Source: Frankia alni ACN14a | GTDB taxonomy: Bacteria > Actinomycetota > Actinomycetes > Frankiales > Frankiaceae | Assembly: GCF_000058485.1 (NCBI RefSeq) | Contig: NC_008278.1 | Span: 4,582,962 to 4,646,961, forward strand | Reading direction: 5' to 3' | Length of the DNA stretch: 64,000 nucleotides | Part shown: piece by piece, positions 29,375 through 48,460 of the stretch | Numbering within the stretch: the stretch's first letter is position 1 | How the letters are laid out: every line of letters starts with the position of its first letter | Notes under the pieces: model-generated | The model's input: the letters and a program-made list of their open reading frames with translations, nothing else | The model's database searches: none | What the model was told of the DNA's origin: nothing | Program-made: the position numbers and the translations under genes

Positions 29375-30568
29375 ATGAACATCGGAACGTCCGCGGACGC
29401 CACCTGGCGTGGCGCGGTCGCCCGGTGCCCCAAGACGATGGAGCACGGCCCCTGCGGAGGGGTCCGGTCCGACGGTCGCTGCGAGGTCCCGGATTTCGGT
29501 CGGTGCCCCTTCCTGGACGCCCTCGCCGCCTGGCCGTACCCCGCCCCGCCCGCCGTCGCCCCGTCGCTCGTCGCCCCGCCAGTGGCCGCCGGATCCGTCG
29601 CGGCCTTGTCCCCGGCCGTTCCTGCGTCCGACGCGCCGGACGCCGCGAGCCGACCGGCCCTCTCCGCACCGGCCCGGCCCGCACCGGCCCGCGCCGCCGC
29701 GGCGGCGGCGTTCGTCGCGGCCGCGGCGGTGCGACCGGTGATCGTGGCCGACCTGCCGGCGGCGGCGCTGTCCGCGGACAGCCTGCGCGCGTGCGGCGCC
29801 CAGCTCGCACCGGTGGCCGACGCCTGCCTCATCGGCGATCACGGCGATGCCCGCGTCCAGTTCCCACCGTCCTACCGGGCCCGGCTGCTGACCGACGCCG
29901 GCGTGCCCGTCTGGGCCGGGATCAACTGCCGGGACCGCAACCGGGTGGCGATCGAGGGGGAGATCGCCGCCTGCGTCGACGCCGGCGTGACCGGACTGCA
30001 CTGCGTGACCGGCGATCATCCGGCGCTCGGTCACCGCGCCGACGCGGTCGGCGTGTTCGAGCTGGACAGCGTGGACGTCGTCGGCCTGGCCCGGGACCGC
30101 GGGGCGCTGGTCTCGGTGGCACACGCGCCGGCCGCACCGCCCGTCTCCCGCCGGACCTCCCGCCTGCTCGCCAAGGCCGACGCCGGAGCCGAGGTGGTGT
30201 TCGTCGACCACTGCGGCGGCCCGGCGGCGGTCGGCGACGCGGTGGCCGAGCTGCGCGCGGCCGGGTTCGGCGGCCTCGCGCTGGCCTGCGTGCCGGTCGT
30301 GACGAGTGCCGCGACCGCCACCGTCGTCGCGTCGTTCGCCGGCGGCCGCCTGCCGGCCGGCTACCTGGAGGAGATCATGGCCGCGGACGATCCGCACGCC
30401 GCCGGTACGCGCGCCGCCACGAAGCTCGCCGGCCGGCTGCTCGACCTGCCCGGCGTCGACGGGATCAATCTCTCCGGTGGCGCGCAGCCGGGCCACGAAC
30501 CGGCGGCGGCCCGCGCGACCGCCGAGATCGCCCGCCGCATCGTCGGCACCCGGGCACGGACGTCATGA
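29375..30568 (+). CDS. MTHFR-like protein with N-terminal zinc-binding module
   Basis: A 397-residue protein. Residues about 12-50 hold RCPKTMEHGPCGGVRSDG and a further two cysteines (CEVPDFGRCPF), the cysteine cluster usually found at the C-terminal end of methylenetetrahydrofolate reductases (MTHFR_C zinc module). An Ala/Pro linker follows, then a divergent TIM-barrel of the MTHFR fold (VWAGINCRDRNRVAIEGEI; GLHCVTGDHPALGH; INLSGGAQP). Order of modules is inverted relative to the common fusion. It overlaps the amidohydrolase by four bases. Flavin- or folate-dependent handling of a one-carbon unit is inferred. The start is uncertain (29375, 29372 or 29297). Confidence 0.75.
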   Translation: MNIGTSADATWRGAVARCPKTMEHGPCGGVRSDGRCEVPDFGRCPFLDALAAWPYPAPPAVAPSLVAPPVAAGSVAALSPAVPASDAPDAASRPALSAPARPAPARAAAAAAFVAAAAVRPVIVADLPAAALSADSLRACGAQLAPVADACLIGDHGDARVQFPPSYRARLLTDAGVPVWAGINCRDRNRVAIEGEIAACVDAGVTGLHCVTGDHPALGHRADAVGVFELDSVDVVGLARDRGALVSVAHAPAAPPVSRRTSRLLAKADAGAEVVFVDHCGGPAAVGDAVAELRAAGFGGLALACVPVVTSAATATVVASFAGGRLPAGYLEEIMAADDPHAAGTRAATKLAGRLLDLPGVDGINLSGGAQPGHEPAAARATAEIARRIVGTRARTS

Positions 30569-31869
30569 GCTGGCTTCGCGGCGCGATGACCGCGCACGGC
30601 GGCGTCGTGGACGTCGAGCTGTCGGGCGGCGTCATCGGGCGGGTCGTCCCGAGCGGCGCGGGCGCCGAGGTCGTCCGGGTCGGCCCGGGTGACGTCGACC
30701 TGACCGGCCAGGTGCTGCTGGCGTCGTTCGTGGAGCCGCATGCGCATCTGGACAAGGCGCTCACCGCGTCGCTGGCCCGCAACGTCACCGGTGATCTCGC
30801 CGGCGCGATCGCGGCGATCCAGACCCTGCTGCCCGCCTCCACGGTCGAGGACTTCACGACCCGGGCCGAGGCGGCGCTGCGCATCCAGCTCGCGATGGGC
30901 ACCACCCACGTCCGCACGCATGTCAACGTCGGGGTGCAGTCGGGCATGCGGGCGCTGGAGGCGCTCGTCGACGTGCGGGAACGCTGGCGCGGCCTGGTCG
31001 ACCTGCAGCTCGTCGCTCTCGTGTCCAACCCGCTGGACGGCCAGCCCGGCCGCGACCTGCGCCGCGCGCTGGCCGAGGGAGCCGACGTGGCCGGCGGCTG
31101 TCCGCACCTCGACCCGGAGCCGCACCGCGCGGTCGCGATCTGCCTGGACGCGGCCGGTGAGGCCGGCCGACCACTGGACCTGCACACCGACGAGACCCTC
31201 GACCCGCGACTGCTCACCCTCGCCACGCTCGCCGACCTGGTCGGCCGCACCGGTTTCCCGCACGGCGTGACGGCGAGCCACTGCGTCAGCCTCGCGATGC
31301 AGCCCCCGGACGTGCAGGTCCGGGTCGCCGAGCAGGTCGCCGCCGCCGGCATCGCCGTCGTCGCGCTGCCCCAGACCAACCTGTTTCTGCAGGGCCGCAA
31401 CCACGCGGTCGGCACCCCGCGCGGGCTGACCGCCGTCGCGCCGCTGCGCCGCGCCGGGGTGACCGTGGCGGCGGGCGGCGACAACCTGCGCGACCCGTTC
31501 AACCTCGTCGGCCGCGGCGACGCGCTGGAAACCGCGTCGCTGATGGTCACCTGCGGGCATCTCACCCCGGACGAGGCGCTGGCATCGGTGAGCGACGCGC
31601 CGCGGCGCGCCCTCGGCCTGCCGGCCGTCTCGCTCGCGCCGGGCAGCCCGGCCGACCTGGTCGCGCTGCCCGCGGCGAACGCCCTCGAGGCGCTGGCCGC
31701 GGCCGGCGAGCAGCGAACCGTCTGGCGGGCCGGCCGGATCGTGGCCCGCACCACCGTGCACGCCGAACTCGCCGAACCACAGCGACCGGCCCCGCGCGCC
31801 GAGCCGGTCCGGCGCCCCGGGACCGAGCCGTACGACGCCCAACCGGACCAGTGGGAGGCCGCATCATGA
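30565..31869 (+). CDS. Cytosine-deaminase-like metal-dependent amidohydrolase
   Basis: A 434-residue enzyme. Metal ligands are visible as FVEPHAHLDKAL (His59, His61), a mid-barrel LDLHTDETLDP and GVTASHCVS, and the C-terminal aspartate in GGDNLRDPFNLV, which matches the cytosine deaminase/isoguanine deaminase branch. The reaction is hydrolytic deamination of a cyclic amidine; cytosine, creatinine and related rings are all handled by this branch. It starts with ATG overlapping the MTHFR-like stop and ends overlapping the ABC ATPase start, so it is co-translated with both. Confidence 0.87.
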   Translation: MSWLRGAMTAHGGVVDVELSGGVIGRVVPSGAGAEVVRVGPGDVDLTGQVLLASFVEPHAHLDKALTASLARNVTGDLAGAIAAIQTLLPASTVEDFTTRAEAALRIQLAMGTTHVRTHVNVGVQSGMRALEALVDVRERWRGLVDLQLVALVSNPLDGQPGRDLRRALAEGADVAGGCPHLDPEPHRAVAICLDAAGEAGRPLDLHTDETLDPRLLTLATLADLVGRTGFPHGVTASHCVSLAMQPPDVQVRVAEQVAAAGIAVVALPQTNLFLQGRNHAVGTPRGLTAVAPLRRAGVTVAAGGDNLRDPFNLVGRGDALETASLMVTCGHLTPDEALASVSDAPRRALGLPAVSLAPGSPADLVALPAANALEALAAAGEQRTVWRAGRIVARTTVHAELAEPQRPAPRAEPVRRPGTEPYDAQPDQWEAAS

Positions 31870-32672
31870 CGATCGCCGACACCACCGCCGCCGACACCAC
31901 CCCCGCCGACGCCACCACCGCAGCCAACTCCGCCGGAGCCGACGCACCGGCCCTGCACTTCGCGGGGGTACGCAAGCGGTTCCGGGACGGCACCGTCGCG
32001 CTCACCGACACCGACCTGACGATCCACCCCGGCGAGTTCGTCTCGATCGTCGGACCGTCGGGGTGCGGCAAGAGCACCCTGCTGCGCATCGCCAGCGGAC
32101 TGGACGAGGCCACCGCCGGAACCGTCGACGTGGCCTCGACGAACGTCGGCTACGTCTTCCAGGACGCCACCCTGCTGCCGTGGCGCACCGTGCACGACAA
32201 CGTGCGGCTGTTCGCCGAGCTGGAGCATCTCGACAAGGCCGAACGCGAACGCCGGGTCGCCGACGCGATCAGCCTCGTCGGCCTCACCGGCTTCGAGAAG
32301 CACCTGCCCCACGAACTGTCCGGCGGCATGCGGATGCGCACGTCGCTGGCCCGCTCGCTCGTGCTCGACCCCTCGATCTTCCTGTTCGACGAGCCGTTCG
32401 GCGCGCTGGACGAGATCAGCCGCGAACGCCTCAACGACGAGCTGCTGCGGATGTTCCAGCTGCGCCGGTTCGCCGCGCTGTTCATCACCCACTCGGTGGC
32501 GGAGGCGGTGTTCCTGTCCACCCGGGTGGTGGTGATGAGCGGCCGGCCGGGACGGGTGAAGGCCGATCTTGCCATCCCGTTCGACTACCCGCGCTCGCCG
32601 CACCTGCGCTACAGCGCCGAGTTCGCCGCCCTGTGCGGCGAGGTCTCGCAACACCTCAGGAGCGATTCATGA
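31866..32672 (+). CDS. ABC importer ATPase (nitrate/sulfonate/pyrimidine type)
   Basis: A 268-residue ATPase with Walker A VGPSGCGKSTLL near residues 59-71, Q-loop in GYVFQDATLLPW, signature HELSGGMRMRTSLARSL and Walker B FLFDEPFGALDE. The sequence belongs with the SsuB/TauB/ThiZ group that powers uptake of sulfonates, nitrate, taurine or HMP-type pyrimidines. The first 30 residues are a Thr/Ala-rich tail. ATGA overlaps join it to both neighbours. Confidence 0.9.
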   Translation: MTIADTTAADTTPADATTAANSAGADAPALHFAGVRKRFRDGTVALTDTDLTIHPGEFVSIVGPSGCGKSTLLRIASGLDEATAGTVDVASTNVGYVFQDATLLPWRTVHDNVRLFAELEHLDKAERERRVADAISLVGLTGFEKHLPHELSGGMRMRTSLARSLVLDPSIFLFDEPFGALDEISRERLNDELLRMFQLRRFAALFITHSVAEAVFLSTRVVVMSGRPGRVKADLAIPFDYPRSPHLRYSAEFAALCGEVSQHLRSDS

Positions 32673-33562
32673 GCGTGACGGTGCCTTCCGTGGTCGAGAC
32701 GGACGCGACCGGCGACGCGGCCACGGCGACGCCGGCGACCGACGTGACACCCGCCCGCCCACGGTCTCGCCGGCGTGGCGCCGGGCTGGTCAGCTTCGTG
32801 CTGCTGCCCGGGGCGGTGTTCGCGGTGTTCATCGGCCTCTGGTACGCGGTGTCCGACGGCGTGCTCAACGACCAGCAGCGGTTCATGCTGCCGCCGCCGC
32901 ACGAGGTCGTCCGGGTCGGCTTCCTCGACTGGTCGAACTTCACGACGATGATGAGCGCGCTGCGGCTGACCTGCGAAGTCACCTTCTCGGGGCTGGCCAT
33001 CTCGATTGTCATCGGGGTCGCCGTCGCGGTGGCGATGAGCCAGGCCAAGTGGGTCGAGAACTCGCTGTACCCGTGGGCCGTCGTGATCCAGACGGTGCCG
33101 ATCCTCGCGCTCACCCCGGTGCTGAGCTTCTTCTTCGGGTTCGCGCTGACCAGCCGGATCATCGTCTGCGTCATCATCGCGTTCTTCCCCATCGTGTCGA
33201 ACACGCTGTTCGGGCTGCAGTCGGTCGACCGGGGCATGCACGAGTTGTTCAGCCTGCACCACACCGGCAGGCTGACTCGGCTGTGGAAGCTGCAGCTGCC
33301 GGCGGCGCTGCCGTCGATGTTCACCGGATTCCGCAACGCCGCCGGCCTGTCGGTCATCGGCGCGATCGTCGGCGAGTTCTTCTTCAAGCAGGGCGAGCCG
33401 GGGCTCGGCACGAACCTGTCGGTGTTCACCTCCCGGTTGGAGGGCGAGCGCCTGTGGGCGACCACGCTCACCGCGAGCCTGCTCGGCGTCGCGGTCTTCG
33501 TCTTCTTCGGCTGGCTGGCGCGGCGCGTGGTCGGCCGCTGGTACCAGCCGAAGCGCGGCTGA
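32669..33562 (+). CDS. ABC importer permease
   Basis: A 297-residue membrane protein with about six helices after a basic N-terminus. LVSFVLLPGAVFAVFIGLWY is the first helix. The cytoplasmic EAA-type loop for ATPase contact is FSLHHTGRLTRLWKLQLPAA. It belongs to the SsuC/ThiX-type permease family. Its start overlaps the ATPase stop, and the binding protein follows 119 bases later. Confidence 0.9.
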   Translation: MSVTVPSVVETDATGDAATATPATDVTPARPRSRRRGAGLVSFVLLPGAVFAVFIGLWYAVSDGVLNDQQRFMLPPPHEVVRVGFLDWSNFTTMMSALRLTCEVTFSGLAISIVIGVAVAVAMSQAKWVENSLYPWAVVIQTVPILALTPVLSFFFGFALTSRIIVCVIIAFFPIVSNTLFGLQSVDRGMHELFSLHHTGRLTRLWKLQLPAALPSMFTGFRNAAGLSVIGAIVGEFFFKQGEPGLGTNLSVFTSRLEGERLWATTLTASLLGVAVFVFFGWLARRVVGRWYQPKRG

Positions 33563-33681
33563 CCCACTTGGCGCGACCCACGCGACGGCGGCGCGCCCTG
33601 CGCGCCGCCGCTGCCCGCCGCCGCGCCCCCACCGCACCACACTCACCGGCCCGAACGGCCTATGAACTCGGGGAGACCTAG

Positions 33682-34887
33682 TTGACCAGATCTCGGCGAC
33701 GGCCCGCGCGGCTCGTCGCGCTGACCGCGACCGCGACCGCGCTCGCCCTCACCGCCGCCGCGTGCGGCAGCGGCGGCAGCGACGGGGGGTCCACCGGCGC
33801 CGCGGCCCCGTCCGCGGCGGGCGCGGCACCGGCGGCGCTCGACCTCAAGGCCGCCGGCTGCCCGTCGACGATCGTGCTGCAGACCGACTGGAACCCGGAG
33901 TCCGAGCACGGCGGCCAGTACCAGCTCCTCGGGCCGAACCCGAAGATCGACGCGGGCAAGAAGTCCGTCACCGGTGAGCTGACGGCCCACGGCGGCGTCG
34001 ACACCGGGGTGAAGCTGGAGATCCGCGCCGGTGGCCCGGCGATCGGCTTCCAGACGGTGACCTCCCAGCTCTACAAGGACTCCGGGATCACGCTGGGCTA
34101 CCTGGGCACCGACGAGCAGATCGCCCTGTCCAAGACCCAGCCGACCGTGGCGGTGCTGGCGGGTCTGGAGAAGAGCCCGCAGGTCATCCAGTGGTCGCCG
34201 GACAAGCACCCGGACTGGAAGACGATCGCCGACATCGGCAGGACCGACACGAAGGTCCTGTACTTCCAGGGCGCGTCCTACATGGACTACTTCACCGGCT
34301 CCGGCATCCTGAAGAAGGGGCAGGTCGACGGCAGCTACGACGGCACGCCGACGAACTTCGTGGCCTCCGGCGGCGCCGACGCGGTTCAGGGCTTCGCGAC
34401 GTCGGAGCCCTACACCTGGTCCCACGAGGTGCGCTCCTGGGACAAGCCACTGAAGTACCAGCTGATCGCGGATGCGGGCTTCAACTTCTACCAGCAGGCG
34501 ATCGGCGTCCGCAAGGACAAGCTCGACGCGCTCAAGCCCTGCCTGAGCAAGCTCGTCCCGATCATGCAGCAGGGCATCGTCGACTTCATGGCCGCCCCGG
34601 CAGCGACGAACAAGCTGATCCTCGACCTCGTCGACAAGTACAACAACGGCTGGGTCTACTCCCAGGGCGTCGCGGACTACGCGGTGCAGACCATGAAGTC
34701 GCTGGGCATCGTCGGCAACGGGGCCGACAGCACCCTCGGGGACTTCGAGGACGCGCGGCTGCAGAAGCTCATCGAGATCCTCGACCCGATCTACCAGTCG
34801 CAGGGCAAGCCGATCCTGTCCGGGCTCAAGCCGGCGAACCTCGTCGACAACAGCTTCCTCGACACCAAGATCGGACTTGGTACCTGA
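33682..34887 (+). CDS. ABC importer lipoprotein binding subunit (NMT1/THI5-like)
   Basis: A 401-residue exported lipoprotein. Basic residues, a hydrophobic core and the lipobox LTAAAC place the lipid cysteine at Cys28. The mature part has two alpha/beta lobes in the NMT1/SsuA style (GCPSTIVLQTDWNPESEHGG; TDEQIALSKTQPTVAVLAG), a class that binds nitrate, sulfonates or pyrimidine precursors. TTG at 33682, eight bases after GGGGAG, is the start; no ATG is suitably placed. It completes a full importer. Confidence 0.87.
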   Translation: MTRSRRRPARLVALTATATALALTAAACGSGGSDGGSTGAAAPSAAGAAPAALDLKAAGCPSTIVLQTDWNPESEHGGQYQLLGPNPKIDAGKKSVTGELTAHGGVDTGVKLEIRAGGPAIGFQTVTSQLYKDSGITLGYLGTDEQIALSKTQPTVAVLAGLEKSPQVIQWSPDKHPDWKTIADIGRTDTKVLYFQGASYMDYFTGSGILKKGQVDGSYDGTPTNFVASGGADAVQGFATSEPYTWSHEVRSWDKPLKYQLIADAGFNFYQQAIGVRKDKLDALKPCLSKLVPIMQQGIVDFMAAPAATNKLILDLVDKYNNGWVYSQGVADYAVQTMKSLGIVGNGADSTLGDFEDARLQKLIEILDPIYQSQGKPILSGLKPANLVDNSFLDTKIGLGT

Positions 34888-34890
34888 GCG

Positions 34891-36303
34891 ATGTCGGATT
34901 CGACCCTCGCGGCGTCGCGCGGCCGGGCCGGGGAGCGCGCGCTCCCCGGCTTCGGCCGGGCGGCGCTGCCCGCCGTGACCCCCCTGGACCCCGGTGTGCT
35001 CGACGCGCTGGCCGCCGAGCTCGCCACCGTGGTCGGCGCCGACGCCGTGCTGCGCGACGAACCGGCCCGCCTGTCGGCCTCGACGGACTGGGCGCACATG
35101 AGCCCGGTGCTGGCGCCGCTGCTGCCCGGCGGTGTCGCCGACGTGGTGGTCCGCCCGCCCGACGTCGCCGGGATCGCGGCGGCGGTCGGGGCCGCGCACC
35201 GCCACCGGGTGCCGGTGACCGTGCGCGGCCAGGGCACCGGCAACTACGGGCAGGGCATCCCGCTGTTCGGCGGGCTCGTCATCGACACCACGGCAGCCGC
35301 CCGGATCCTCGCGGTCGAGGACGGCTGGCTGACCGCGGAGGCCGGCGCGTCGTTCGTGCTGATGGAGAAGGCCGCCCTGGCCACCGGGCAGGAGCTGGCG
35401 ATCCTGCCCTCGACCGTGGGAAGCACGGTCGCCGGATTCATCGCCGGCGGCTCCGGCGGCACCGGCTCGATCGCCAACGGCGCGATCTGGGACGGCTACC
35501 TGCGCTCGCTGCTCGTCGTGCCGTGCACCGACGACGCCGTCCCGGTGGAGGTGCCCTTCCCGGACAACACCGCGATGGCGCACGCGTTCGGCGTCAACGG
35601 GGTGATCGCGCAGGCGACCGTGGCGCTGCGTCCCGCGCGCCGCTGGACCGGACTGTTCGCGTCCTTCCCGGAGCTGGCCGGCGCCGTCGCCGCCGGCGAG
35701 GAGCTGTTCGACCTGGCGCCCACGCCGCGGCTGCTCTCGCTCGACGAGGCCGGGATCATCGCGACCTACCGGCCGGTGGACCCGGCGATGCCCGCCGACC
35801 GGGTCAGCCTGCGCGGGATCGTCACCGAGGACAGCGTCGCCGCGGCGAGGGCCGTCGTCGAGCAGCACGGCGGGCGGGTCGACGCCGTGCGCCCCAAGGG
35901 CCCGGCGCACATCGCCTCGCTGTCTTACAACCACACCACCTACCGCGTCCGCAAGGTCCGCCCGGAACTCACCCACCTGCAGTGCATGGGCCCCGGTCTC
36001 ACCCGACGCCGCGCGGAGGTCGCCGCGCTCGCCCCCGAGTCGCTCATCCACCTGGAGGGCTTCCTCACCGCGAACGGCCGCGACTGGGTCTCGATGCTGT
36101 TCCTGCGCTACGACGGGCCCGACGACCTGTACGAGCGGATGGCCCGGCTGGCCGACGTCGAGGTGTACGTCGACGACCCGCACACCTGGGAGCTGCACCA
36201 CGGGCGCCTGGACCTGGTCCGTGAGGCCGCCGCCCGGTTCGACCCGGACGGCCTGCTCAACCCCGGCAAGCTCCCCGCCCCCACCCCCGCCACACCGTCC
36301 TGA
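34891..36303 (+). CDS. FAD-linked oxidase (GlcD/PCMH type)
   Basis: A 470-residue flavoenzyme. The FAD-binding PCMH fold is seen in VTVRGQGTGNYGQGIPLFGG and AILPSTVGSTVAGFIAGGSGG. The C-terminal half carries a substrate-cap region ending FDPDGLLNPGKLP, the classical end of glycolate/lactate/alkyl-glycerol oxidase relatives. It follows the binding protein by three bases, so it is the last gene of the importer operon. It probably oxidises a C-N or C-OH bond of the imported compound or its product. Confidence 0.87.
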   Translation: MSDSTLAASRGRAGERALPGFGRAALPAVTPLDPGVLDALAAELATVVGADAVLRDEPARLSASTDWAHMSPVLAPLLPGGVADVVVRPPDVAGIAAAVGAAHRHRVPVTVRGQGTGNYGQGIPLFGGLVIDTTAAARILAVEDGWLTAEAGASFVLMEKAALATGQELAILPSTVGSTVAGFIAGGSGGTGSIANGAIWDGYLRSLLVVPCTDDAVPVEVPFPDNTAMAHAFGVNGVIAQATVALRPARRWTGLFASFPELAGAVAAGEELFDLAPTPRLLSLDEAGIIATYRPVDPAMPADRVSLRGIVTEDSVAAARAVVEQHGGRVDAVRPKGPAHIASLSYNHTTYRVRKVRPELTHLQCMGPGLTRRRAEVAALAPESLIHLEGFLTANGRDWVSMLFLRYDGPDDLYERMARLADVEVYVDDPHTWELHHGRLDLVREAAARFDPDGLLNPGKLPAPTPATPS

Positions 36304-36460: not shown

Positions 36461-36859
36461 TCAGCCGAAAGTGTTGACCTTCGTCGGGGTCACGGCGATG
36501 CTGTAGCGGTGCTCGCCGGGCGGGGTGAGCTTGCGGATGTCATCGGCCGTGCGGCCGCGGCTCTCGGCGATCTTCGCGGCCCAGGTGTAGTCGTCGTCGA
36601 GGATGACCTCGGCGGTGCCGCGGACCTCCACCGTGCGGTAGACGTTGGTGATGTCCAGCAGGAACAGCGAGCACTGCGGCGTGCGCTGCAGGTTCTTCAG
36701 CTTCTGCTTGTCCGAGCTGACCGAGATGCGGAAGACGCCGTCGTCGAGCAGGTAGCCCACGGCCGTGGTCTGCGGAGCGCCGTCGGGGCCGAGGGTGGTG
36801 AGGATCGCGACCTCGGCGTTCTGGGCGAGGTCGCGGTGGGTCTCTGGGATGAGGGTCAC
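36461..36859 (-). CDS. PPOX-class F420-dependent protein, Rv1155-like
   Basis: A 132-residue split barrel. VAILTTLGPDGAPQTTAVGY and ISVSSDKQKLKNLQRTPQ are the F420/FMN-binding motifs of the TIGR03618-type (Rv1155-like) family, and VEVRGTAEVILDDDY closes the barrel. Such proteins reduce quinones, biliverdin or mycotoxins, or simply store F420. GTG at 36859. It lies alone between the importer operon and the CrtI-like operon; the link to them is only positional. Confidence 0.87.
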   Translation of the reverse strand: MTLIPETHRDLAQNAEVAILTTLGPDGAPQTTAVGYLLDDGVFRISVSSDKQKLKNLQRTPQCSLFLLDITNVYRTVEVRGTAEVILDDDYTWAAKIAESRGRTADDIRKLTPPGEHRYSIAVTPTKVNTFG

Positions 36860-40580: not shown

Positions 40581-40591
40581 GCTGCCTCCGA

Positions 40592-40610
40592 ATGTTGACG
40601 GGATCAACAT
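40592..40610. promoter_or_regulatory. 19-base palindromic operator ATGTTGA-N5-TCAACAT
   Basis: Perfect seven-base arms around five bases, just upstream of the GGAGG of the LLM gene. The site lies 79 bases from the stop of the XRE-cupin regulator gene, which makes that protein a candidate binder. Half-site spacing of 12 bases between centres fits a dimeric helix-turn-helix repressor. Confidence 0.7.
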
Positions 40611-41249: not shown

Positions 41250-42412
41250 GACGCGGCCGCGGCGGCGGCCACCACCGCGTCGAGCAGCCCCCGGTCCGCG
41301 CCGGGCGGGCCGACCAGGGCTAGTCCCACCGGTCCGCCCTGGGTCCTGGGGGTCGGCAGGACGCAGCTCGGCAGGCCGTACGCACTAGCCACAACGGTGC
41401 AGCCTAGCGTCGCCTGGCGCCAGGCGTCCCGATCACGCGCGCCGCTGCCGCGAAGATGGCCGGGACCGCCGGCGGCGGGCAGCACGAGCCAGGTGTCGGC
41501 GCCGAGCCGGTCCAGCAGCCGCGCCCGCCCGGCGGCGATCTGGCGTCGGGCGACGCGTTCGGCGCCCGCGTCGACCCCGGCGCCGAACCGGAATCGCTCC
41601 TCGACGTCGGCACCCAGCGCGCGGGGGTGCGCGGTGATCCAGGCACCGTGCAGCCGCCACGCCTCGGCGGCCTGCACCACGCGGAACGCCGCGACCAGTC
41701 CCGGGATGTCGCCGAGCTCGTGGACTCCCCCGGTGCGGACGTCCGCTCCCAGCGCGTCGGTGAGCGTGCCGACGGCCGCGGCCGGCAGCGGCCCCGCCAC
41801 GAACAGCCGCGCCGCCGGCCGGGGGGCACCTGCCGGCGGCGGCAGCAGGACGTTGCCGACCGCGCGCAGCAGGCCCGGATCGGCGGTGAGCCAGCCGACC
41901 GCGTCGAAGGACGGGGCGAGCCCCAGCACGCCGCCTGCCCCGACCGTGCCATGCGTCGGCCGCAGCCCGTACAGCCCGCAGACGGAGGCGGGCACCCGGA
42001 TCGACCCGGCCGTGTCGGTCCCCAGCCCGACGTCGGCCTGCCCGGCGGCGACCGCCGAGGCGGGCCCGCTGGTCGACCCGCCGGGCACCCGGTCGGGGGC
42101 CGCCGGATTGGGCGGGGTGCCGTAGTGCACGTTCGCCCCGGACAGGGAGAAGGCGAGCTCGTCGGTCTGCGCGATCCCGGCGATCGCCGCGCCCGCGGCC
42201 CGCAGCGCCCGGACGGCCTGCGCGTCAACCGGCTCCACCGGCGCCTCGGCGAGCCATCGGGGGTTGCCCGCGCCGATCCGGTACCCGCCGACGGCGAAGA
42301 GGTCCTTCACGGCAACCCGCAGCCCGTCCAGCGGGCCGCAGCCGGTCGGCGCCAGCAGCGGGTCACCGTGTTCCCGCCACACAGCCCGCGGCCACCCGTC
42401 GTCCAGGCTCAC
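41246..42412 (-). CDS. Amidase signature hydrolase
   Basis: A 388-residue amidase. The Ser-cisSer-Lys triad is Lys36 (LRVAVKDLFAV), Ser113 (VPGGSTSGPASA) and Ser137 (GLGTDTAGSIRVPAS), with the 24-residue spacing of the two serines as in known members. The cluster context (AtzH-like domain and isochorismatase-family gene) resembles carboxybiuret or ureido-amide hydrolysis, but relatives also act on indole-acetamide and mandelamide. GTG 42412 overlaps the preceding stop (GTGA), giving a compact N-terminus. Confidence 0.87.
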   Translation of the reverse strand: MSLDDGWPRAVWREHGDPLLAPTGCGPLDGLRVAVKDLFAVGGYRIGAGNPRWLAEAPVEPVDAQAVRALRAAGAAIAGIAQTDELAFSLSGANVHYGTPPNPAAPDRVPGGSTSGPASAVAAGQADVGLGTDTAGSIRVPASVCGLYGLRPTHGTVGAGGVLGLAPSFDAVGWLTADPGLLRAVGNVLLPPPAGAPRPAARLFVAGPLPAAAVGTLTDALGADVRTGGVHELGDIPGLVAAFRVVQAAEAWRLHGAWITAHPRALGADVEERFRFGAGVDAGAERVARRQIAAGRARLLDRLGADTWLVLPAAGGPGHLRGSGARDRDAWRQATLGCTVVASAYGLPSCVLPTPRTQGGPVGLALVGPPGADRGLLDAVVAAAAAAS

Positions 42413-43854
42413 CGACGCCCCTCCGGCGGTTCCATCCCCGGCGGGTCCGCCGACGGGACGCCGGCCCACGAGGCGCCGGCCACCGGAGCACCGGAGAGGT
42501 TCCCGTCACTCATCGGGGAGACGCAGGCGGCGATCACCCGCCAGCCGTCGTCGGTGCGGGCCCACACCTGGGTCTGGGTGCTGAGGCCGACGATCCGGCC
42601 GTCAGGTCCCAGCCGCTCGTTCGTCGACACGGTGACGACGGTCTCCCCGGGGCTGCGCACCACGTGCAGGGCGCGCAGCCGGCGCGGGCCGGGGGTGGGC
42701 CGGGCTGCCCGGTAGGCCGCGAGCGCCGACGGCCCCACCAGTGGCCCGTCCCCGTCGACGCGCACCACGTCCGCACCGGTGGAGAAGGACGCCTGCTGGG
42801 TTGCCACGTCCCCGGCCATGAGGGCCCGTTCGTAGGCCGCGAAGGCGGCGCCGAGTGCCGGGTCGATGGCGGCCAGCTCCGCCGGCGCCCCCTCTTCCGC
42901 CTGCGCCCCCTCCTCCGCCGAGACGGCCGCCGCCGCCGACGCGGCCGCCGCCGTCTCAACGCCGAGGGGACGCAGAATGCTGAAGTCGGCGAAGTCGTGG
43001 CGCAGCGCCGGACGGCGCAGCAGGTCGGTGCCGGGGCGGCCGGGCGCCTTGCCGGCGGCGACCGCCTCGAACGCGTCCGCGGTGCGGCGCAGGAAGTCCG
43101 GGCCGACCCGGTACCGCAGCGTGTGCGCGGGGTAGATGTCCCGCACCGAGCCGGCCAGCCGCGACGCGAGGCTGCGCAGGGTCGCGGCGAACACGTCGAC
43201 CTCGGCGTCGGGCATGTGCACCCAGAAGTCGCCGGTGATGAGCGTGTCGCCGGCGAACAGCTGGCCGTCGCGCTCGTCGAACAGGCACAGCGAGTCCGGC
43301 GAATGGCCGGGGGTGTGCAGCACGGTGAGCTCCCGGCCGCCCAGGTCGATGCGCTCGCCGTCGGCCAGCGCGACCGGCGCGGGCCCCGCGGGCACGGTCC
43401 AGGCGTCGGCGGACGGTGGCAGCGGGCGCGGCGTCGTCTCCTCGGTGAGCAGGTGGAAGAACCGCTCGTCGTCGGCGCGCAGCCGGGCGTAGGCGGCGTA
43501 CTGCTCGCGGGCGACGGTGAGGTAGGCGGTCAGCCGCTCGGCGGGCACCGGTGCGGTCACCGCCGGTGTCGCCAGCGGGTGCGCCGCGACGTCGCGGAAC
43601 AGCCAGTTGCCGCCGCGATGGTCGTCATGACCGTGGGAGTTGACGGCAAGGATCGGCCGGTCGGTCAACGACCGGGCCGCCGCGTGCACGTCGGCGAGCC
43701 CCAGCCCGGTGTCGACGAGCACCGCCCGCTCGTCGCCCTCGACCAGAAAGCAGTTGACGTGGCCGGGCTCGGCGACCAGCCAGGTCCGGGCCGCGACGGG
43801 CCGCAGCGCGAACCAGTCCGCCGCAGCAACCGCCACCGCGTCGACGCCGGTCAT
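42409..43854 (-). CDS. Metallo-beta-lactamase hydrolase fused to an AtzH-like domain
   Basis: A 481-residue protein of two parts. Residues 1-310 are a metallo-beta-lactamase domain with the dinuclear metal motif NSHGHDDHRGG (His74, His76, Asp78, His79), further ligands in VLHTPGHSPDSL and FAGDTLITGDFW and IYPAHTLRYRVG. An Ala/Glu linker leads to residues about 335-465, a SnoaL/NTF2-like domain of the AtzH (DUF3225) kind, with ALMAGDVATQQASFS and DDGWRVIAACVS. AtzH proteins normally stand alone beside an amidase in cyanuric-acid-type pathways, so this fusion is unusual. It overlaps both neighbours by four bases. Confidence 0.82.
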   Translation of the reverse strand: MTGVDAVAVAAADWFALRPVAARTWLVAEPGHVNCFLVEGDERAVLVDTGLGLADVHAAARSLTDRPILAVNSHGHDDHRGGNWLFRDVAAHPLATPAVTAPVPAERLTAYLTVAREQYAAYARLRADDERFFHLLTEETTPRPLPPSADAWTVPAGPAPVALADGERIDLGGRELTVLHTPGHSPDSLCLFDERDGQLFAGDTLITGDFWVHMPDAEVDVFAATLRSLASRLAGSVRDIYPAHTLRYRVGPDFLRRTADAFEAVAAGKAPGRPGTDLLRRPALRHDFADFSILRPLGVETAAAASAAAAVSAEEGAQAEEGAPAELAAIDPALGAAFAAYERALMAGDVATQQASFSTGADVVRVDGDGPLVGPSALAAYRAARPTPGPRRLRALHVVRSPGETVVTVSTNERLGPDGRIVGLSTQTQVWARTDDGWRVIAACVSPMSDGNLSGAPVAGASWAGVPSADPPGMEPPEGRR

Positions 43855-44321
43855 GGCGCGGTGGACGGCACGGTCGACGGCCTGGTGGACGGCACGGTGG
43901 ACGGCACGGCGGCCAGGACGGCGCGGTCCTCGTCGTCGGTACCGGCGAGGGGCCCGCGGCGCACCATCGCCGCGAACCCGTCGTCCGGGCTCATCAGGGT
44001 CAGCGCATACAACCGGCCCGGTCCCGTGTTGGTGATGTGGTGCAGGGACGTGGGCGGAAGCACCAGCGTGCCGCCGGCGGCGACGGCGACCTCGGTGCCG
44101 TCGCAGACGGCCACCCCGTGCCCGCGCAGGAACACGAACAGCTCGGTGGACGCCGGATGACTGTTGGGCGGCTGCGCCCCGCCGACGTCCCAGGACTCCA
44201 GGATGACGGTGACCGGCGAGACCTCCGGCCCGGCGAGCACGCCGAGGCGCACGGTGTCCCCGGCGCTGATGTGGTGCATCTCCAGGGCGTCCGGGGTGAT
44301 CAGGATCGGGGTGGTCGGCAC
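43851..44321 (-). CDS. Small cupin-domain protein
   Basis: A 156-residue single cupin. VILESWDVGGAQPPNSHPAS, ELFVFLRGHGVAVCDG and LPPTSLHHITNTGPG are the two cupin motifs, with the histidines kept (His in NSHP and HH). It may be a metal-dependent isomerase, dioxygenase or sensor in the pathway. The C-terminal 18 residues are a short (VPST)n tail from a repeated DNA unit. GTG at 44321 lies four bases after the isochorismatase stop. Confidence 0.82.
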   Translation of the reverse strand: MPTTPILITPDALEMHHISAGDTVRLGVLAGPEVSPVTVILESWDVGGAQPPNSHPASTELFVFLRGHGVAVCDGTEVAVAAGGTLVLPPTSLHHITNTGPGRLYALTLMSPDDGFAAMVRRGPLAGTDDEDRAVLAAVPSTVPSTRPSTVPSTAP

Positions 44322-44325
44322 GGCT

Positions 44326-45132
44326 TCACCCCTGCCCGGCGGACTCGGCGAAAGCGACGGGATCGACGGGATCAGCGAGGGAGTCGGTGAACGACGCCGA
44401 GGAGGCGACGAACCCGAAGCACTGGGCGACGTTGTAGACGGTGGCGTCGTGGCAGAACGGCGGTGACGTGGTCGCTGCACAGTCCTCGAGCAGCACGACG
44501 TCGTAGCCGAGGCAGGCCGCGTCGGTCAGGGTGGCCAGCACGCACTGGTCGGAGTTCACTCCGGCGAACAGCAGCGTCGTCACCATGAGGTTGCGCAGCA
44601 CGGCGTCCAGCGGCGTGTCGAAGAAGCCGCTCATCCGGTACTTGTCGACGTGCACGTCGCCGGGCTGCGCCGCGAGCTCGTCGACGATCGCCGCCGACCA
44701 GCTACCGGCCTGCAGCGTCGGGCTGCCGCCGGGGCGGGCCGGCGCGCCGATGCCGCCGCTGGCCCCGTCCGGGTTGTAGACGTGCAGCACGCCGGGCGGC
44801 AGGTTCGCCGCGTCCGGCCGGTTGCCCCAGTTCAGCCAGACGACGGCGACGCCGGCGGCGCGCAGCACCGGCAGGACCCGGCGTAGCGGTGCGATGGGCC
44901 GGCGCGCCGGGGTGATGTCGACGCCGATCGAGGCGAGCCAGCCGTCGGGATGGCAGAAGTCGTTCTGCATGTCGACGACGACGACGGCGGTGCGGGTCAG
45001 GTCGAGGGTGAGCCGCTGCGGGCGGGCGTCGACGGTGACCGGCAGCGGCGCGACCGGGGCGCGGCGCAGATCGACGTGTTCGGACGACACCGCCCACGAG
45101 TTCCGGGGGCCACCCAGCCGGATGTTGACCAC
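44326..45132 (-). CDS. Isochorismatase-family cysteine amidohydrolase
   Basis: A 268-residue enzyme with the full catalytic triad: Asp54 in VVVVDMQNDFC, Lys164 in HVDKYRMSGF and Cys197 in AGVNSDQCVLATL. This branch contains N-carbamoylsarcosine amidase, biuret hydrolase and ureidoacrylate hydrolase RutB, all of which release carbamate or ammonia from a ureido group. GTG at 45132 was chosen; upstream codons come from a repetitive intergenic stretch. It is the first gene of the five-gene leftward operon. Confidence 0.85.
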   Translation of the reverse strand: MVNIRLGGPRNSWAVSSEHVDLRRAPVAPLPVTVDARPQRLTLDLTRTAVVVVDMQNDFCHPDGWLASIGVDITPARRPIAPLRRVLPVLRAAGVAVVWLNWGNRPDAANLPPGVLHVYNPDGASGGIGAPARPGGSPTLQAGSWSAAIVDELAAQPGDVHVDKYRMSGFFDTPLDAVLRNLMVTTLLFAGVNSDQCVLATLTDAACLGYDVVLLEDCAATTSPPFCHDATVYNVAQCFGFVASSASFTDSLADPVDPVAFAESAGQG

Positions 45133-45401
45133 GCGAACATCCTGCGGCCGGCCGTTTGCCGCGGCATTACCGAGCCGTTGCGGCCCGGTGGCGACCGCCC
45201 TGGGCGCCGACCCGATCGCGATGCTTGCCCGGGATGCCAGCTCGGGATGCCAGCCCGGCAGCTCGGGAGGCCAGCCAGCGACGCCCGCCCACGACGCCCG
45301 CCCGCGATGCCGGTGGGCGTCGCGGCTACCCGATGCGGCCAGGGATGCGCTGGTCACGACGGTAACGACGCCGACATCGGGGCGTGGCAGGGTTCCGGCC
45401 C
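45133..45401. other. Repeat-containing divergent promoter region
   Basis: 269 bases between the isochorismatase operon and the formamidase operon. It contains direct repeats of CGGGATGCCAGC (45230-45255) with a related GGAGGCCAGCC and two copies of ACGCCCGCC, so part of it looks tandemly expanded. Both promoters must lie here. No gene. Confidence 0.55.
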
Positions 45402-46553
45402 GTGACTGTCTTGCACAGCGGCATCGGGGTCCCGGCGGGCGAGCCCTACCTGCCGTCCCGGCCGGACGAGGTCTGGTGGGGGCTGCTGCCGAACGCGGCG
45501 AGCCGACCGGTGCTGACCGTGCCCTCCGGGCAGGCCGTCCGCATCGACACGATCAGCCACGAGGGCCTGCTCGCCGACCAGGGCGGCGATCCGCGGGCCT
45601 TCTTCGGCGCCGCGGGCATTCCGGCCGACGCGCTGCTCGACGACGTACTGGCGCTGGCGGGCAGCGGCCGACGCCACCAGCCCGACGTCGCCGGCCCGCA
45701 CGTGGTCACCGGCCCGGTGGCCGTGGCCGGGGCCCGGCCGGGGGACGTCCTGGAGGTCGAGGTGCTCGACCTGGTCCGCCGGGCCCCCTACGGGGTGATC
45801 AGCAACCGGCACGGACGGGGGGCGCTGCCCGGCGAGATGCCGATCGCGCCGCCGGGCCTGCCGCCCGGGGCCGCGGTGCCGCCGGTGTGCCTGGTCGCGC
45901 ACACCCGCGGCGAGGCCGGGGTGCTGCCCGTGGGCGACGGCCGCGAGATCCGTTTCCCGCTGCGCCCCTTCCTCGGGATCATGGGGGTCGCGGTCGCGAC
46001 GACCGGACCGGTCCACTCGGTGCCGCCCGGGCCGCACGGCGGCAACCTCGACATCCGCCACCTCGGCGTCGGCGCCCGTCTCTACCTGCCCGTCCAGGTC
46101 CCGGACGCGCTGTTCTACGCCGGGGATCCGCACTTCGCCCAGGGCGACGGCGAGGTGGCGCTCACCGCGTTCGAGGCACCGCTGCGCGCCCTGCTGCGCC
46201 TGACCGTGCACTCCGACGAGTCCGTGCGCCGCACCGCCGGAGCCCTGAGCGCGCCGTGGGCGCAGACCGACGCGCTGCACATCGTCGCCGGGCTCGACCC
46301 GGACCTCGGCGAGGCGATGCGCGCGGCCACCCGCAACGCCGTGGCGTTCCTGCGTGAACGGTTCGCGCTGCCGCCGCAGGTCGCCCTGGCCTACCTGTCC
46401 GCCGCCGGCGACTTCGCGGTGAGCCAGGTCGTCGACCAGGTCGTCGGCGTGCACTGCTGCATCCGCCGTGACGACCTGCGCGGACTGGACGGATCCAAGG
46501 GGCCGGGCGGGCGGGACGGATTGGACGGACCGGACGGCGACATCAGCGGATGA
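45402..46553 (+). CDS. Acetamidase/formamidase-family protein
   Basis: A 383-residue protein of the FmdA/AmdA family. RPDEVWWGLLP, VTGPVAVAGARPGDVLEVEVLD, GGNLDIRHLGVGARLYLPV and YAGDPHFAQGDGEVALTAFE are the conserved metal-site segments. It hydrolyses short amides such as formamide to acid and ammonia. The C-terminal 25 residues are Gly/Asp-rich. GTG at 45402 has AGGG upstream; GTG at 45384 is an alternative. It heads a rightward operon divergent from the isochorismatase operon. Confidence 0.87.
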   Translation: MTVLHSGIGVPAGEPYLPSRPDEVWWGLLPNAASRPVLTVPSGQAVRIDTISHEGLLADQGGDPRAFFGAAGIPADALLDDVLALAGSGRRHQPDVAGPHVVTGPVAVAGARPGDVLEVEVLDLVRRAPYGVISNRHGRGALPGEMPIAPPGLPPGAAVPPVCLVAHTRGEAGVLPVGDGREIRFPLRPFLGIMGVAVATTGPVHSVPPGPHGGNLDIRHLGVGARLYLPVQVPDALFYAGDPHFAQGDGEVALTAFEAPLRALLRLTVHSDESVRRTAGALSAPWAQTDALHIVAGLDPDLGEAMRAATRNAVAFLRERFALPPQVALAYLSAAGDFAVSQVVDQVVGVHCCIRRDDLRGLDGSKGPGGRDGLDGPDGDISG

Positions 46554-46617
46554 GACGACGCGGCAGCGGATACCCTCGGCTTCTGAGCGGTTCCGCGGGC
46601 GTCGGAAGGTGGTCCGG

Positions 46618-47349
46618 GTGGCGATGGCCGAGCAGGTCGAGGTGCCGCTGCTGCGCGGGCTGATCGGGCAGGCGCTGCGGCGCCGCCGGCTGGCCCAGCA
46701 ACGCACCCTGCGCGACGTCGCGGCGGCGGCGCTGGTGTCGACGCCCTACCTGTCCGAGATCGAACGGGGCCGCAAGGAGGCCTCCTCGGAGATCCTCGCG
46801 GCGATCTGCCGCGCGCTCGGCGTGCGCCTGACGGACCTGCTCGACGAGGTACGCCTCGAACTCGCCCGCGTCGAGCCCGAGATCGCCCCCGCCGCGCCGC
46901 CCGCCCCGCCGGCCGAGGTCGGCCAGCCGATCACCGCGCAGCTGAGCGTCTCGCGCCCTTCGTGGGCGTCACTCCCGTTCCAACCCCGTGCCGCGGCGGG
47001 CGGCCTGCTCGCGGGGGACGGTCTACTCGCGGGGGACGAGGCGGCGATCTGGGACGGCGACGGCACCGTCACCGGTCCGGGGCTCGCCTCGTCGGCGCAC
47101 CAGCACGGCGTGTCGCCGAACCTGGGGCTCTCGGCCGGGTACGAGGCCGTGCTTGGCGCGGGCCGGGTCGTCGTGCCGGCCGGCGCGCGGGTCGGCCGCC
47201 GTTCCTCCCCCGGGTGCGCCGCCGGAGCAATCCGCGCCGCCCGCCGCGGGCTCCCCGTCTGTGCCGGCCGGCCCGGCGGGCCGACGAACCCACGGCCTGT
47301 GGGCGGGCCGACCGTCCGCCGGTCGGCTTCGGTCGTCCTCGCAGGCTGA
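46618..47349 (+). CDS. XRE-family regulator, ClgR-like
   Basis: A 243-residue protein. Residues 8-75 are an HTH_3 domain (LLRGLIGQALRRRRLAQQR, then LVSTPYLSEIERGRKEASSE and AAICRALGVRLTDLLDE) that closely resembles ClgR, the activator of clp protease genes. ClgR is normally 110-150 residues; the extra 130 residues here are Ala/Gly/Pro-rich with a duplicated LLAGDGLLAGD segment and may be disordered. It may regulate the operon it sits in, or the clpP pair about 2 kb away. GTG at 46618 follows GAAGG; ATG 46624 is the alternative. Confidence 0.75.
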   Translation: MAMAEQVEVPLLRGLIGQALRRRRLAQQRTLRDVAAAALVSTPYLSEIERGRKEASSEILAAICRALGVRLTDLLDEVRLELARVEPEIAPAAPPAPPAEVGQPITAQLSVSRPSWASLPFQPRAAAGGLLAGDGLLAGDEAAIWDGDGTVTGPGLASSAHQHGVSPNLGLSAGYEAVLGAGRVVVPAGARVGRRSSPGCAAGAIRAARRGLPVCAGRPGGPTNPRPVGGPTVRRSASVVLAG

Positions 47350-47374
47350 CCGTCGGACACCCCGGGAGGGCGGC

Positions 47375-48460
47375 ATGCGGTTCCTGGTCATCACCCTGAT
47401 TGTTCATCGGCCGGACCCGGTCACCGGCATCACGCCGTCCGCCCGGGACCGGTTGCGCGAGGTGGTCGACAGCGCGGTGCTCGCCGAGGAGCTGGGTTTC
47501 GACGGGTTCGGCGTCGGTGAGCGGCACGAACGGCCGTTCATCTCCTCCTCGCCGCCGGTCGTGCTCAGCCACCTCGCGGCCCGCACCTCGCGCATCCGGC
47601 TGTTCACCGCGGTGACGACCCTGAGCCTGCTGGACCCGGTGCGCGCGTACGAGGACTACGCCACCCTCGACAACCTCTCCGACGGCCGCCTCGAACTGAT
47701 CATCGGCAAGGGCAACGGCACGGCGCAGCGGGAGCTGTTCAACGTCACCCCCGAGGACCAGTGGGACCGCAACGCCGAGTCCTACGAGCTGTTCCGCCAG
47801 ATCTGGCGGCAGGACACGATCACCGCGCAGCCACGCTACCGGCCCGCGCTGCACGAGGCCGAGGTCTGGCCGCGCCCGTACCAGCAGCCGATCCGGGTCT
47901 GGCACGGCAGCGCCACCAGCCGGGAATCGGTGGACCTCGCCGCCCGCTACGGCGACCCGCTGTTCTCCGCCAACGTCACCAACCCGATCGAGCCCTACGC
48001 CGAGCTGGTCCACTACTACCGGCAGCGCTGGGCGGAGTACGGCCACGACCCGGCGCTGGCCGCGGTCGGCGCCGGCACGGCCGGTTTCCACGTGGCCCCC
48101 CGCTCGCAGGACGCCGTGGCCGCCTACGCGCCTGTGTTCGCCGGGCAGCTCGCCTTCCAACGTTCGATGGGGATGGAGCCGGTGTTCCCGACCCTCGAGG
48201 ACTTCATCGAACGCAGCTCCGCGCTGATCGGCAGCCCCCAGCAGATCATCGACAAGGTCCACCGCTACCACGAGCAGTTCGGCCACAGCGTGCTGCACCT
48301 GCACGCCGAGGCCGGCGGCCTGCCCCCCGCCGAGCACCGCGCGAGCCTCGAGCTTTTCCAGTCCGAGGTCGCCCCGGCACTACGCCGCACCATCCCCGAC
48401 CCGCCGTGGCCCTGGGCGCCGGTCCTGCCCGAGGCAGCCGTGACCGCGGCCGCGGACTGA
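47375..48460 (+). CDS. LLM-class flavin-dependent monooxygenase, second copy
   Basis: A 361-residue luciferase-like barrel. FDGFGVGERHERPFISSS, IRLFTAVTTLSLLDPVRAYED and RLELIIGKGNGTAQRELF are the flavin-site motifs, and RVWHGSATSRESVDLAARYG is the later phosphate-binding region. It differs strongly from the LLM gene at 39354, so the two act on different substrates or steps. GGGAGGG precedes ATG 47375. It is the third gene of the formamidase operon. Confidence 0.87.
   Translation: MRFLVITLIVHRPDPVTGITPSARDRLREVVDSAVLAEELGFDGFGVGERHERPFISSSPPVVLSHLAARTSRIRLFTAVTTLSLLDPVRAYEDYATLDNLSDGRLELIIGKGNGTAQRELFNVTPEDQWDRNAESYELFRQIWRQDTITAQPRYRPALHEAEVWPRPYQQPIRVWHGSATSRESVDLAARYGDPLFSANVTNPIEPYAELVHYYRQRWAEYGHDPALAAVGAGTAGFHVAPRSQDAVAAYAPVFAGQLAFQRSMGMEPVFPTLEDFIERSSALIGSPQQIIDKVHRYHEQFGHSVLHLHAEAGGLPPAEHRASLELFQSEVAPALRRTIPDPPWPWAPVLPEAAVTAAAD

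Follow-up and report, generated by a model that had tools for sequence, protein, structure and literature searches.

Which compound is handled by the 18 genes at positions 29375 to 48460 of the window, a stretch of 64,000 nucleotides from the plant-symbiont soil bacterium Frankia alni ACN14a (contig NC_008278.1, positions 4,582,962 to 4,646,961)? A first-pass annotation, made from the letters alone, had seen in this island an undescribed pathway for a nitrogen-rich, possibly N-methylated compound; the genes travelling together supports the former part of that view, and an N-methylated substrate is not supported. We propose, with a probability of roughly 58%, that the island mediates the uptake and breakdown of a fused heterocycle rich in nitrogen, which would serve as a nitrogen source; a pteridine released when folate is broken down (such as pterin, formylpterin or xanthopterin) is the most likely candidate. 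Folate and pterins are present in most cells, and to our knowledge the bacterial breakage of the pteridine ring is poorly described. What we observe directly is which genes are present, that they are spaced as in operons, and that they form two modules which occur jointly; each of the reactions proposed below is one that we infer.

The reading frames were checked against the window sequence, protein classes were assigned by Pfam and NCBIfam profile scans with curated cut-offs, and folds were assigned from AlphaFold2 models searched with Foldseek. All genes listed in the first pass are present as open frames, and Pfam or NCBIfam backs the class of every one except the substrate-binding protein (SBP), whose class is upheld by its predicted fold. 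That list had omitted a small cupin and a PPOX-class F420-type protein, and the AtzH-like fusion that it named does hold the AtzH-like domain, the fusion partner being a metallo-beta-lactamase-fold (MBL) hydrolase (Table 1). The plus-strand operon 1 (29375-36303) codes for an MTHFR-like protein, a 'cytosine deaminase', the ATPase, permease and SBP of an ABC importer and a FAD_binding_4 flavoenzyme (FOX). The minus-strand operon 2 (45129 down to 36971) codes, in this order, for an isochorismatase-family amidohydrolase (isochorismatase in what follows), the cupin, the MBL-AtzH fusion, an amidase, an XRE-cupin protein, a luciferase-like monooxygenase (LLM1), a creatininase homologue and a CrtI-like oxidoreductase. 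The PPOX gene sits between these operons, and the genes for FmdA, a further XRE regulator and a second luciferase-like monooxygenase (LLM2) lie on the plus strand at 45384-48460. Overlaps are found in 8 of the 17 neighbouring gene pairs, a spacing that supports the operon organisation suggested in the first pass.

Two linked but separable gene modules

Neighbourhoods were compared at the best 80 of 555 confirmed isochorismatase relatives (L numbers, which also label further stretches named below), with neighbours counted within up to 10 kb, some stretches being short, and all neighbour counts are conditional on the isochorismatase; 10 of the 80 loci belong to Frankia or Pseudofrankia. The cupin is its commonest neighbour (73 of the 80 loci), followed by the creatininase homologue (57), the amidase (37) and FOX (32). 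Among the 32 FOX-bearing loci, 29 also hold the creatininase homologue and 18 the deaminase; a Rieske oxygenase occurs at 16 of the 80, in 14 cases with the creatininase homologue, and the MTHFR-like gene at none. Separate clustering of all reading frames at the loci reproduced the main gene families.

A second survey covered 216 genomes of the host's class (G numbers; thresholds of 1e-40 for FOX and the creatininase homologue and 1e-60 for the isochorismatase) and detected FOX in 16 genomes, the creatininase homologue in 17 and the isochorismatase in 12. All 16 FOX genomes also have the creatininase homologue (Fisher p 2.8e-23), as do all 12 isochorismatase genomes, 11 of which have FOX (p 5.5e-14). 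The p values ignore the relatedness of the genomes, and since related genomes are not independent (10 of the 16 FOX-bearing ones are Frankiaceae, the others being G122, G163, G218, G225, G226 and G228), independent events are fewer than the counts; the joint occurrence in the 216 genomes is nonetheless far beyond chance.

Gene order tells the same story. In Streptomyces (L061 and L066), 11 island genes lie on one strand in the order MBL, deaminase, ATPase, permease, SBP, FOX, creatininase homologue, cupin, AtzH-amidase fusion, isochorismatase and FmdA. In Klenkia, where L135 and L062 overlap on a single contig of 684,238 bases, homologues exist for 13 of the 18 island genes, all in one reordered cluster, namely FOX, MTHFR-like, deaminase, ATPase, permease, SBP, LLM1, FmdA, CrtI-like, creatininase homologue, isochorismatase, cupin and amidase, to which a Rieske gene and two TRZ-type amidohydrolases are added. 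The phylogenetic profile that bears on the first-pass proposal, across the 80 loci, the 216 genomes and the order in Streptomyces and Klenkia, is thus one of genes that travel together.

We divide the island accordingly into module A, comprising the importer, the 'cytosine deaminase' and FOX, and module B, comprising the isochorismatase, the cupin, the AtzE-like amidase with AtzH and the formamidase-like enzyme; both modules are accompanied by the creatininase homologue. The modules are linked but separable, because single clusters holding both exist (in Streptomyces, Kribbella, Occultella, Klenkia, Bradyrhizobium, Komagataeibacter and Paenibacillus), yet each module also occurs without the other. 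Six Frankiaceae stretches (L110-L112, L116, L124 and L125) hold a six-gene operon from the MTHFR-like gene to FOX and no module B gene. In G021 separate contigs carry the isochorismatase and FOX, and in G017 some 450 kb lie between them, the creatininase homologue being less than 10 kb from FOX in both. The isochorismatase was unmatched at 1e-60 in 5 of the 16 FOX genomes (G024, G030, G122, G163 and G228), among which G122, G163 and G228 hold module A, the latter two as a row of deaminase, ATPase, permease, SBP, FOX and creatininase homologue. Conversely, G155 has the isochorismatase without FOX, in the company of the creatininase homologue, cupin, amidase and FmdA; L095 likewise has the isochorismatase and no FOX. 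These arrangements, with the cyanobacterial loci considered below, argue for two separate pathways that merely adjoin in this Frankia lineage, with module A dedicated to one heterocycle and module B to general ureide and amide disposal. The single clusters in the seven genera above and the presence of FOX in 11 of the 12 isochorismatase genomes argue against it; we consider such a split, which is compatible with the other readings, unlikely.

Substrate clues and the proposed route

The SBP has no Pfam or NCBIfam match at 0.001 and no PDB sequence match at 1; its AlphaFold2 model (pLDDT 87.9) finds as top Foldseek matches the FAMP-binding protein 3ix1, the thiamin-binding protein 4nmy and Thi5, and it is predicted to fold like a ThiY-type binding protein. 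Such a fold would fit pterin import, because ThiY and the thiamin-binding protein bind aminopyrimidine rings, as are present in pterin; the MTHFR-like partner would suit a folate-type ligand. The window deaminase has as its best model NF005759, which NCBI names cytosine deaminase and whose cut-off it misses (Table 1; 202 bits for the G228 homologue), and 4r7w, 'Cytosine deaminase', as its nearest solved chain (3.8e-47). It is similar to a group of 'cytosine deaminases' to which a pterin deaminase may belong: Arad3529 of Agrobacterium radiobacter K84, a Rhizobium-like host, is annotated as cytosine deaminase and reportedly is a pterin deaminase, proposed as the first step of an undescribed pterin pathway. 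For FOX, the nearest solved chain is 6v42/6v43, which carries the database label 'FAD/FMN-containing dehydrogenase' and which we take to be a flavin oxygenase of folate catabolism. Both are FAD_binding_4 enzymes and are related over the whole enzyme (residues 60-463 of 470), the next chain standing at 1.4e-13.

Close homologues of 6v42 lie in a comparable setting. In two Rhizobium loci (L126 and L127, the two opened of 185 plasmid records matching the 6v42 chain), genes 67% identical to that chain stand in the order creatininase, LysR, SBP, ATPase, permease, 'cytosine deaminase', FOX, NAD(P)H oxidoreductase and RidA, a row that includes the Frankia module A genes and the creatininase homologue. 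Identity between the window and Rhizobium proteins is 33% for the creatininase homologue, 35% for the deaminase, 34% for FOX, 47% for the ATPase, 34% for the permease and 26% for the SBP, and the Rhizobium deaminase exceeds the NF005759 cut-off (703 bits vs 403). The Rhizobium cluster differs from the Frankia island in its NAD(P)H oxidoreductase and RidA genes and in lacking an annotated MTHFR-like, CrtI-like or LLM1 gene; an isochorismatase gene lies about 40 kb away on the same plasmid. If 6v42/6v43 and Arad3529 do belong to folate and pterin catabolism, part of the initial steps is already known from Proteobacteria, and the island in Frankia would be a longer, actinobacterial version of which the lower half is uncharacterised.

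Further clues come from genes beside module A in relatives: G163 has an XdhA-like gene (492 bits vs a cut-off of 780) and two TRZ-type genes, one of which, like genes in G122 and G228, is 8-oxoguanine-deaminase-like, all below cut-off. Taken together, these substrate clues fit a pteridine, and a purine or a single pyrimidine less well. In the route that we posit, the ThiY-like importer would take up the pteridine, and the 'cytosine deaminase' would strip the exocyclic 2-amino group at C2 to give a lumazine. FOX would then oxygenate and weaken the ring, helped or replaced according to lineage by luciferase-like, Rieske or xanthine-dehydrogenase-like enzymes, whereupon the creatininase homologue would hydrolyse a cyclic amide or N-formyl bond. 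This would leave ureides and amides, from which module B would release ammonia, CO2 and a small acid, and the MTHFR-like protein, as an auxiliary, may recognise or reduce a folate-type substrate.

Several observations weigh against a pteridine. Two links name the substrate, the 6v42/6v43 title and Arad3529, and the open-licence papers searched gave nothing on either. The 6v42/6v43 enzyme is only about one-third identical to FOX of the window type (33% for the close homologue at L013), the window deaminase stays under the NF005759 cut-off, and profile scans found no folate gene proper among the 18 island genes. At 33 of the 80 isochorismatase loci the stretch holds none of FOX, Rieske oxygenase and LLM1, and at 23 of the 80 it holds no creatininase homologue, some of these stretches being short. 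A TRZ-type amidohydrolase of Paenibacillus L042 exceeds the cut-off of the 5'-deoxyadenosine deaminase model (683 vs 522), and the Komagataeibacter cluster (L060) lies near the pyrimidine gene PreA. Cyanobacterial loci pair the isochorismatase with the cupin, their stretches showing neither importer nor FOX, and on a plasmid stretch from Streptomyces the isochorismatase stands alone; because these loci have the isochorismatase without module A, module B may serve another substrate. Some of the cyanobacterial loci L076, L077, L080, L085 and L092 also carry a TRZ-type amidohydrolase or a CocE/NonD hydrolase.

Part of the same evidence is shared by the catabolism of a single-ring pyrimidine, such as HMP (the pyrimidine of thiamin) or a modified form of cytosine, in which ThiY-like import, deamination and FOX action would be followed by Rut-like opening by LLM1, RutB-like ureide removal and acetamide or formamide hydrolysis. 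The SBP fold is closest to FAMP- and thiamin-binding proteins, the nearest relatives of the deaminase and isochorismatase are cytosine deaminase and RutB, and in L022, L038 and L056 LLM1 immediately precedes the isochorismatase, an order that recalls RutA before RutB. A RutF-like flavin reductase lies beside the Streptomyces cluster, and in L060 some 6 kb separate a PreA-type dihydropyrimidine dehydrogenase from the isochorismatase. However, LLM1 has no match to the RutA model TIGR03612 at E 0.001 (LLM2 reaches 27.7 bits, the cut-off being 498.3), the Streptomyces reductase scores 86.5 against a RutF cut-off of 254.75, two deaminase families and the xanthine-dehydrogenase-like gene at relatives suggest a larger ring, and the subject of 6v42 is presumably folate. 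On balance, a single pyrimidine is an unlikely substrate. The L060 stretch also holds a carbamoylase-type hydrolase which, with PreA, occupies 15073-19020, a few kb downstream of the cluster.

A purine or oxidised purine (8-oxoguanine, urate-derived hydantoins or oxalurate) degraded by a non-uricase route would account for the TRZ-type amidohydrolases near 23 of the 80 loci, of which those scanned are mostly nearest to 5'-deoxyadenosine or 8-oxoguanine deaminase, for the XdhA-like gene in G163 and for the HpxZ/AtzH domain with an AtzE-like amidase. It would also suit an allantoinase, PuuE, near L032, PucR-like frames seen by eye in Paenibacillus L025 and L042, plasmid loci with nucleoside-type (BMP) importers and neighbours of the gamma-glutamyltransferase family. 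Yet no uricase, HIU hydrolase or allantoin gene is among the 18 island genes, PuuE occurs at one locus and PucR-like frames at two, no systematic search for them having been made, and the Frankia SBP is not of the BMP type. Regular expressions for nucleoside hydrolase and purine-pathway motifs found almost none at the 80 loci. We regard a purine as quite unlikely, and retain a pteridine as the preferred substrate.

Module B beside known ureide and amide systems

The isochorismatase has the complete D-K-C triad of its family, carried by the motifs DMQND, KYRMSGF and NSDQC. Among solved structures it is nearest to RutB (4.5e-40), followed by biuret hydrolase (2.1e-29) and, far behind, N-carbamoylsarcosine amidohydrolase (7.1e-09 and 3.4e-08). 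The first-pass annotation had likened parts of the island to RutA/RutB-type ring opening and to biuret and cyanuric acid degradation; this likeness is real for module B, but the curated models are missed, with 149.4 bits for RutB (TIGR03614, cut-off 377.95), 125.5 for BiuH (NF050097, cut-off 370) and 58 for HpxZ (cut-off 135).

Each of these systems shares something with the island. The Rut pathway supplies, in RutB, the nearest solved relative of the isochorismatase, next to which a luciferase-like gene is found at the three loci named above; it has no counterpart for the importer, deaminase, FOX or creatininase homologue. The available portion of PMC7662398, which covers RutA, mentions neither folate nor pterin. 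With the cyanuric acid, biuret and triuret systems the island shares an AtzE-like amidase with an AtzH domain, and excerpts of PMC7948467 on the triuret route give the isochorismatase fold as common to BiuH and TrtA. A biuret-hydrolase-like gene has been noted near a creatininase-like gene in one nitrifier genome, in the portion of PMC12625717 that deals with the biuret route. Neither the cyanuric acid hydrolase AtzD nor AtzF is among the 18 island genes, to which the search was limited; with this and the missed BiuH cut-off, biuret, triuret and cyanuric acid are rejected as the substrate. To the Hpx oxalurate branch the island is tied by an HpxZ-type domain and an AtzE/HpxY-type amidase, and the Roseomonas plasmid copy of the domain is annotated HpxZ; against this stand the HpxZ score and the lack of urate or allantoin genes among the 18.

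The AtzH-like domain itself is well supported (PF11533, 70.3 bits, cut-off 27). AtzH needs a Tyr and an Arg according to the available part of PMC6219798, and candidate counterparts in the window protein are found in YERAL and VVR. The same excerpts describe atzG-atzE-atzH clusters from many settings, seldom accompanied by atzD or atzF, and suggest that such clusters may be older than the cyanuric acid operon. AtzH has two different fusion partners within this gene set: the MBL hydrolase in the Frankia window, and in Streptomyces (L061 and L066, 8461-9984), where MBL is separate, the amidase. In both Streptomyces loci the FmdA match begins on the last 4 bases of the isochorismatase match, on the same strand. 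The cupin has N49, H51, E56 and H90 invariant across 37 aligned sequences, a residue set consistent with a metal enzyme; its AlphaFold2 model (pLDDT 91.2) has TM1459 as the nearest fold and is alike to many cupins, KdgF included. At L021 (11987-12883) and L078 (11948-12799), a ribokinase-type gene, of which the L021 copy alone was scanned, overlaps the end of the cupin gene and suggests a ribosylated substrate there; both loci also hold a Rieske oxygenase and, by eye, TonB-receptor-like and MFS-like frames.

Parts of the gene set recur in Actinobacteria, Proteobacteria and Paenibacillus; its core is defined and its enzymes are clearly assigned, so that it could provide functions for families with misleading names (creatininase family, cytosine deaminase, isochorismatase, AtzH-like and cupin) and might reveal the origin of the enzymes of triazine and biuret catabolism. 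More tentatively, and with the odds against it, the island may represent a complete, widespread and undescribed route of pteridine mineralisation, whose lower half (the RutB/BiuH-like isochorismatase, the cupin, the AtzE-like amidase with AtzH and the creatininase homologue) would be the natural setting that supplied the s-triazine and biuret enzymes, with the two AtzH fusions marking its place in the order of reactions. Among open-licence papers, which are weak evidence on this point, we found no description of this gene cluster and nothing on point for folate or pterin catabolism or for 6v42/6v43.

The family names creatininase, cytosine-deaminase-like and isochorismatase are what speaks for the route from creatinine through N-methylhydantoin and N-carbamoylsarcosine to sarcosine, for which the first pass had added a folate enzyme as methyl sink. 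The creatininase homologue, however, scores 99 bits against the curated creatininase model TIGR04448 (cut-off 235) and 140 against MftE (cut-off 172), and the isochorismatase is far from N-carbamoylsarcosine amidohydrolase. As the first pass had remarked of hydantoinase, none is visible among the 18 genes, nor is a sarcosine oxidase, and the route would leave FOX, AtzH and the cupin unexplained. On these scores and missing enzymes we reject it as very improbable.

The methyl sink fares no better. In the MTHFR-like protein, the MTHFR domain PF02219 scores 18.2 bits, under its cut-off of 24 and thus short of MTHFR membership, and is matched at E 1 or better in all 11 members of the family (best 3.8e-06). 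The gene heads the Frankiaceae operon and is also a neighbour in G122, G228 and Klenkia. It is in pieces in G003 (L119-L120) and cut in G011 (L118), where most of the rest of the island is kept and most other island genes are more than 90% identical; it has no match in G005 or in G007, a 1310-contig assembly that retains FOX, the creatininase homologue and the isochorismatase, and is unmatched at 1e-10 in 19 of the 20 genomes with other clusters. Because of these fragmented and unmatched copies, and with no folate methyltransferase among the 18 genes, we reject the MTHFR-like protein as a required methyl acceptor.

Auxiliary genes, gene list and surroundings

Along with the MTHFR-like gene we class the CrtI-like gene as auxiliary: it is in pieces in G003 (L014/L119) and has no match in G011 (L118), whose stretch is free of N, adjoins the creatininase homologue in L133 and L134 and is present in the Klenkia cluster (L062). 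A PPOX homologue (38-39% identity) likewise adjoins the creatininase homologue in L133 and L134. Both luciferase-like monooxygenases of the first pass are present; LLM1 recurs in the Klenkia cluster with 47% identity, and LLM2 looks peripheral and is rejected as a core gene, having matched two relatives only among the fetched stretches, to which the search was confined (L014/L119, from one genome, and L118). Both XRE regulators are also present, one proving to be the XRE-cupin protein, with a homologue in the Kribbella L051 and Occultella L087 clusters and in G163, and the other a ClgR-like protein, kept beside FmdA in Frankia relatives at 6 of the 80 loci (L013-L015 and L017-L019) and in L118/L119.

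Table 1. Genes of the island, with positions in the window and the evidence for each class.
Gene product	Position	Strand	Evidence
MTHFR-like protein with N-terminal Cys motif (DUF5981), auxiliary	29375..30568	+	PF12225 26.8 bits (cut-off 23)
'Cytosine deaminase'-type amidohydrolase, NF005759/PRK07583-like; proposed pteridine (pterin) deaminase	30565..31869	+	NF005759 238 bits vs 403
ABC importer ATPase, nitrate/sulfonate/taurine group	31866..32672	+	Pfam/NCBIfam
ABC importer permease	32669..33562	+	PF00528
SBP, TTG start as listed, predicted ThiY-like fold	33682..34887	+	AlphaFold2 and Foldseek
FOX, proposed pteridine oxygenase/oxidase	34891..36303	+	PF01565; 6v42/6v43 4.1e-44
PPOX-class F420-type protein, peripheral	36461..36859	-	TIGR03618 111.6 bits (cut-off 79.05)
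CrtI/CrtO-like FAD oxidoreductase, auxiliary	36971..38587	-	Pfam/NCBIfam
Creatininase-family metal hydrolase, proposed cyclic-amide or N-formyl hydrolase	38584..39357	-	PF02633 217.9 bits
LLM1, luciferase-like monooxygenase	39354..40610	-	PF00296 141.9 bits
XRE-cupin regulator, probable local regulator	40689..41249	-	PF13560, PF07883
GatA/AtzE/HpxY-type amidase	41246..42469	-	PF01425; PRK08310 356 bits vs cut-off 391
MBL-fold hydrolase fused to AtzH/HpxZ domain	42409..43854	-	PF00753, PF11533
Small metal cupin, module B	43851..44312	-	PF07883
Isochorismatase-family amidohydrolase, D-K-C triad, own subfamily near RutB	44326..45129	-	RutB 149, BiuH 125.5
FmdA/AmdA-family amidase, formamidase-like	45384..46553	+	PF03069 90.2 bits; NF045496 formamidase 71.6 vs 500
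XRE regulator, ClgR-like HTH	46624..47349	+	PF01381; NF041677 90 vs 170
LLM2, luciferase-like monooxygenase, peripheral	47375..48460	+	PF00296 266 bits

The island query proteins had no match of at least 55 bits in the flanking window DNA (29.0 kb to the left and 15.5 kb to the right). To the right, a predicted tRNA-Gly(ccc) at 50653-50739 (-) lies inside a long reading frame at 50059-50943 (-), and the extent of one of the two is probably wrong. To the left lie a SufS/CsdA-like aminotransferase, whose listed frame has a long N-terminal extension (26221-27969, +), and, just before the island, a TIGR00027 SAM methyltransferase (28093-29040, -).

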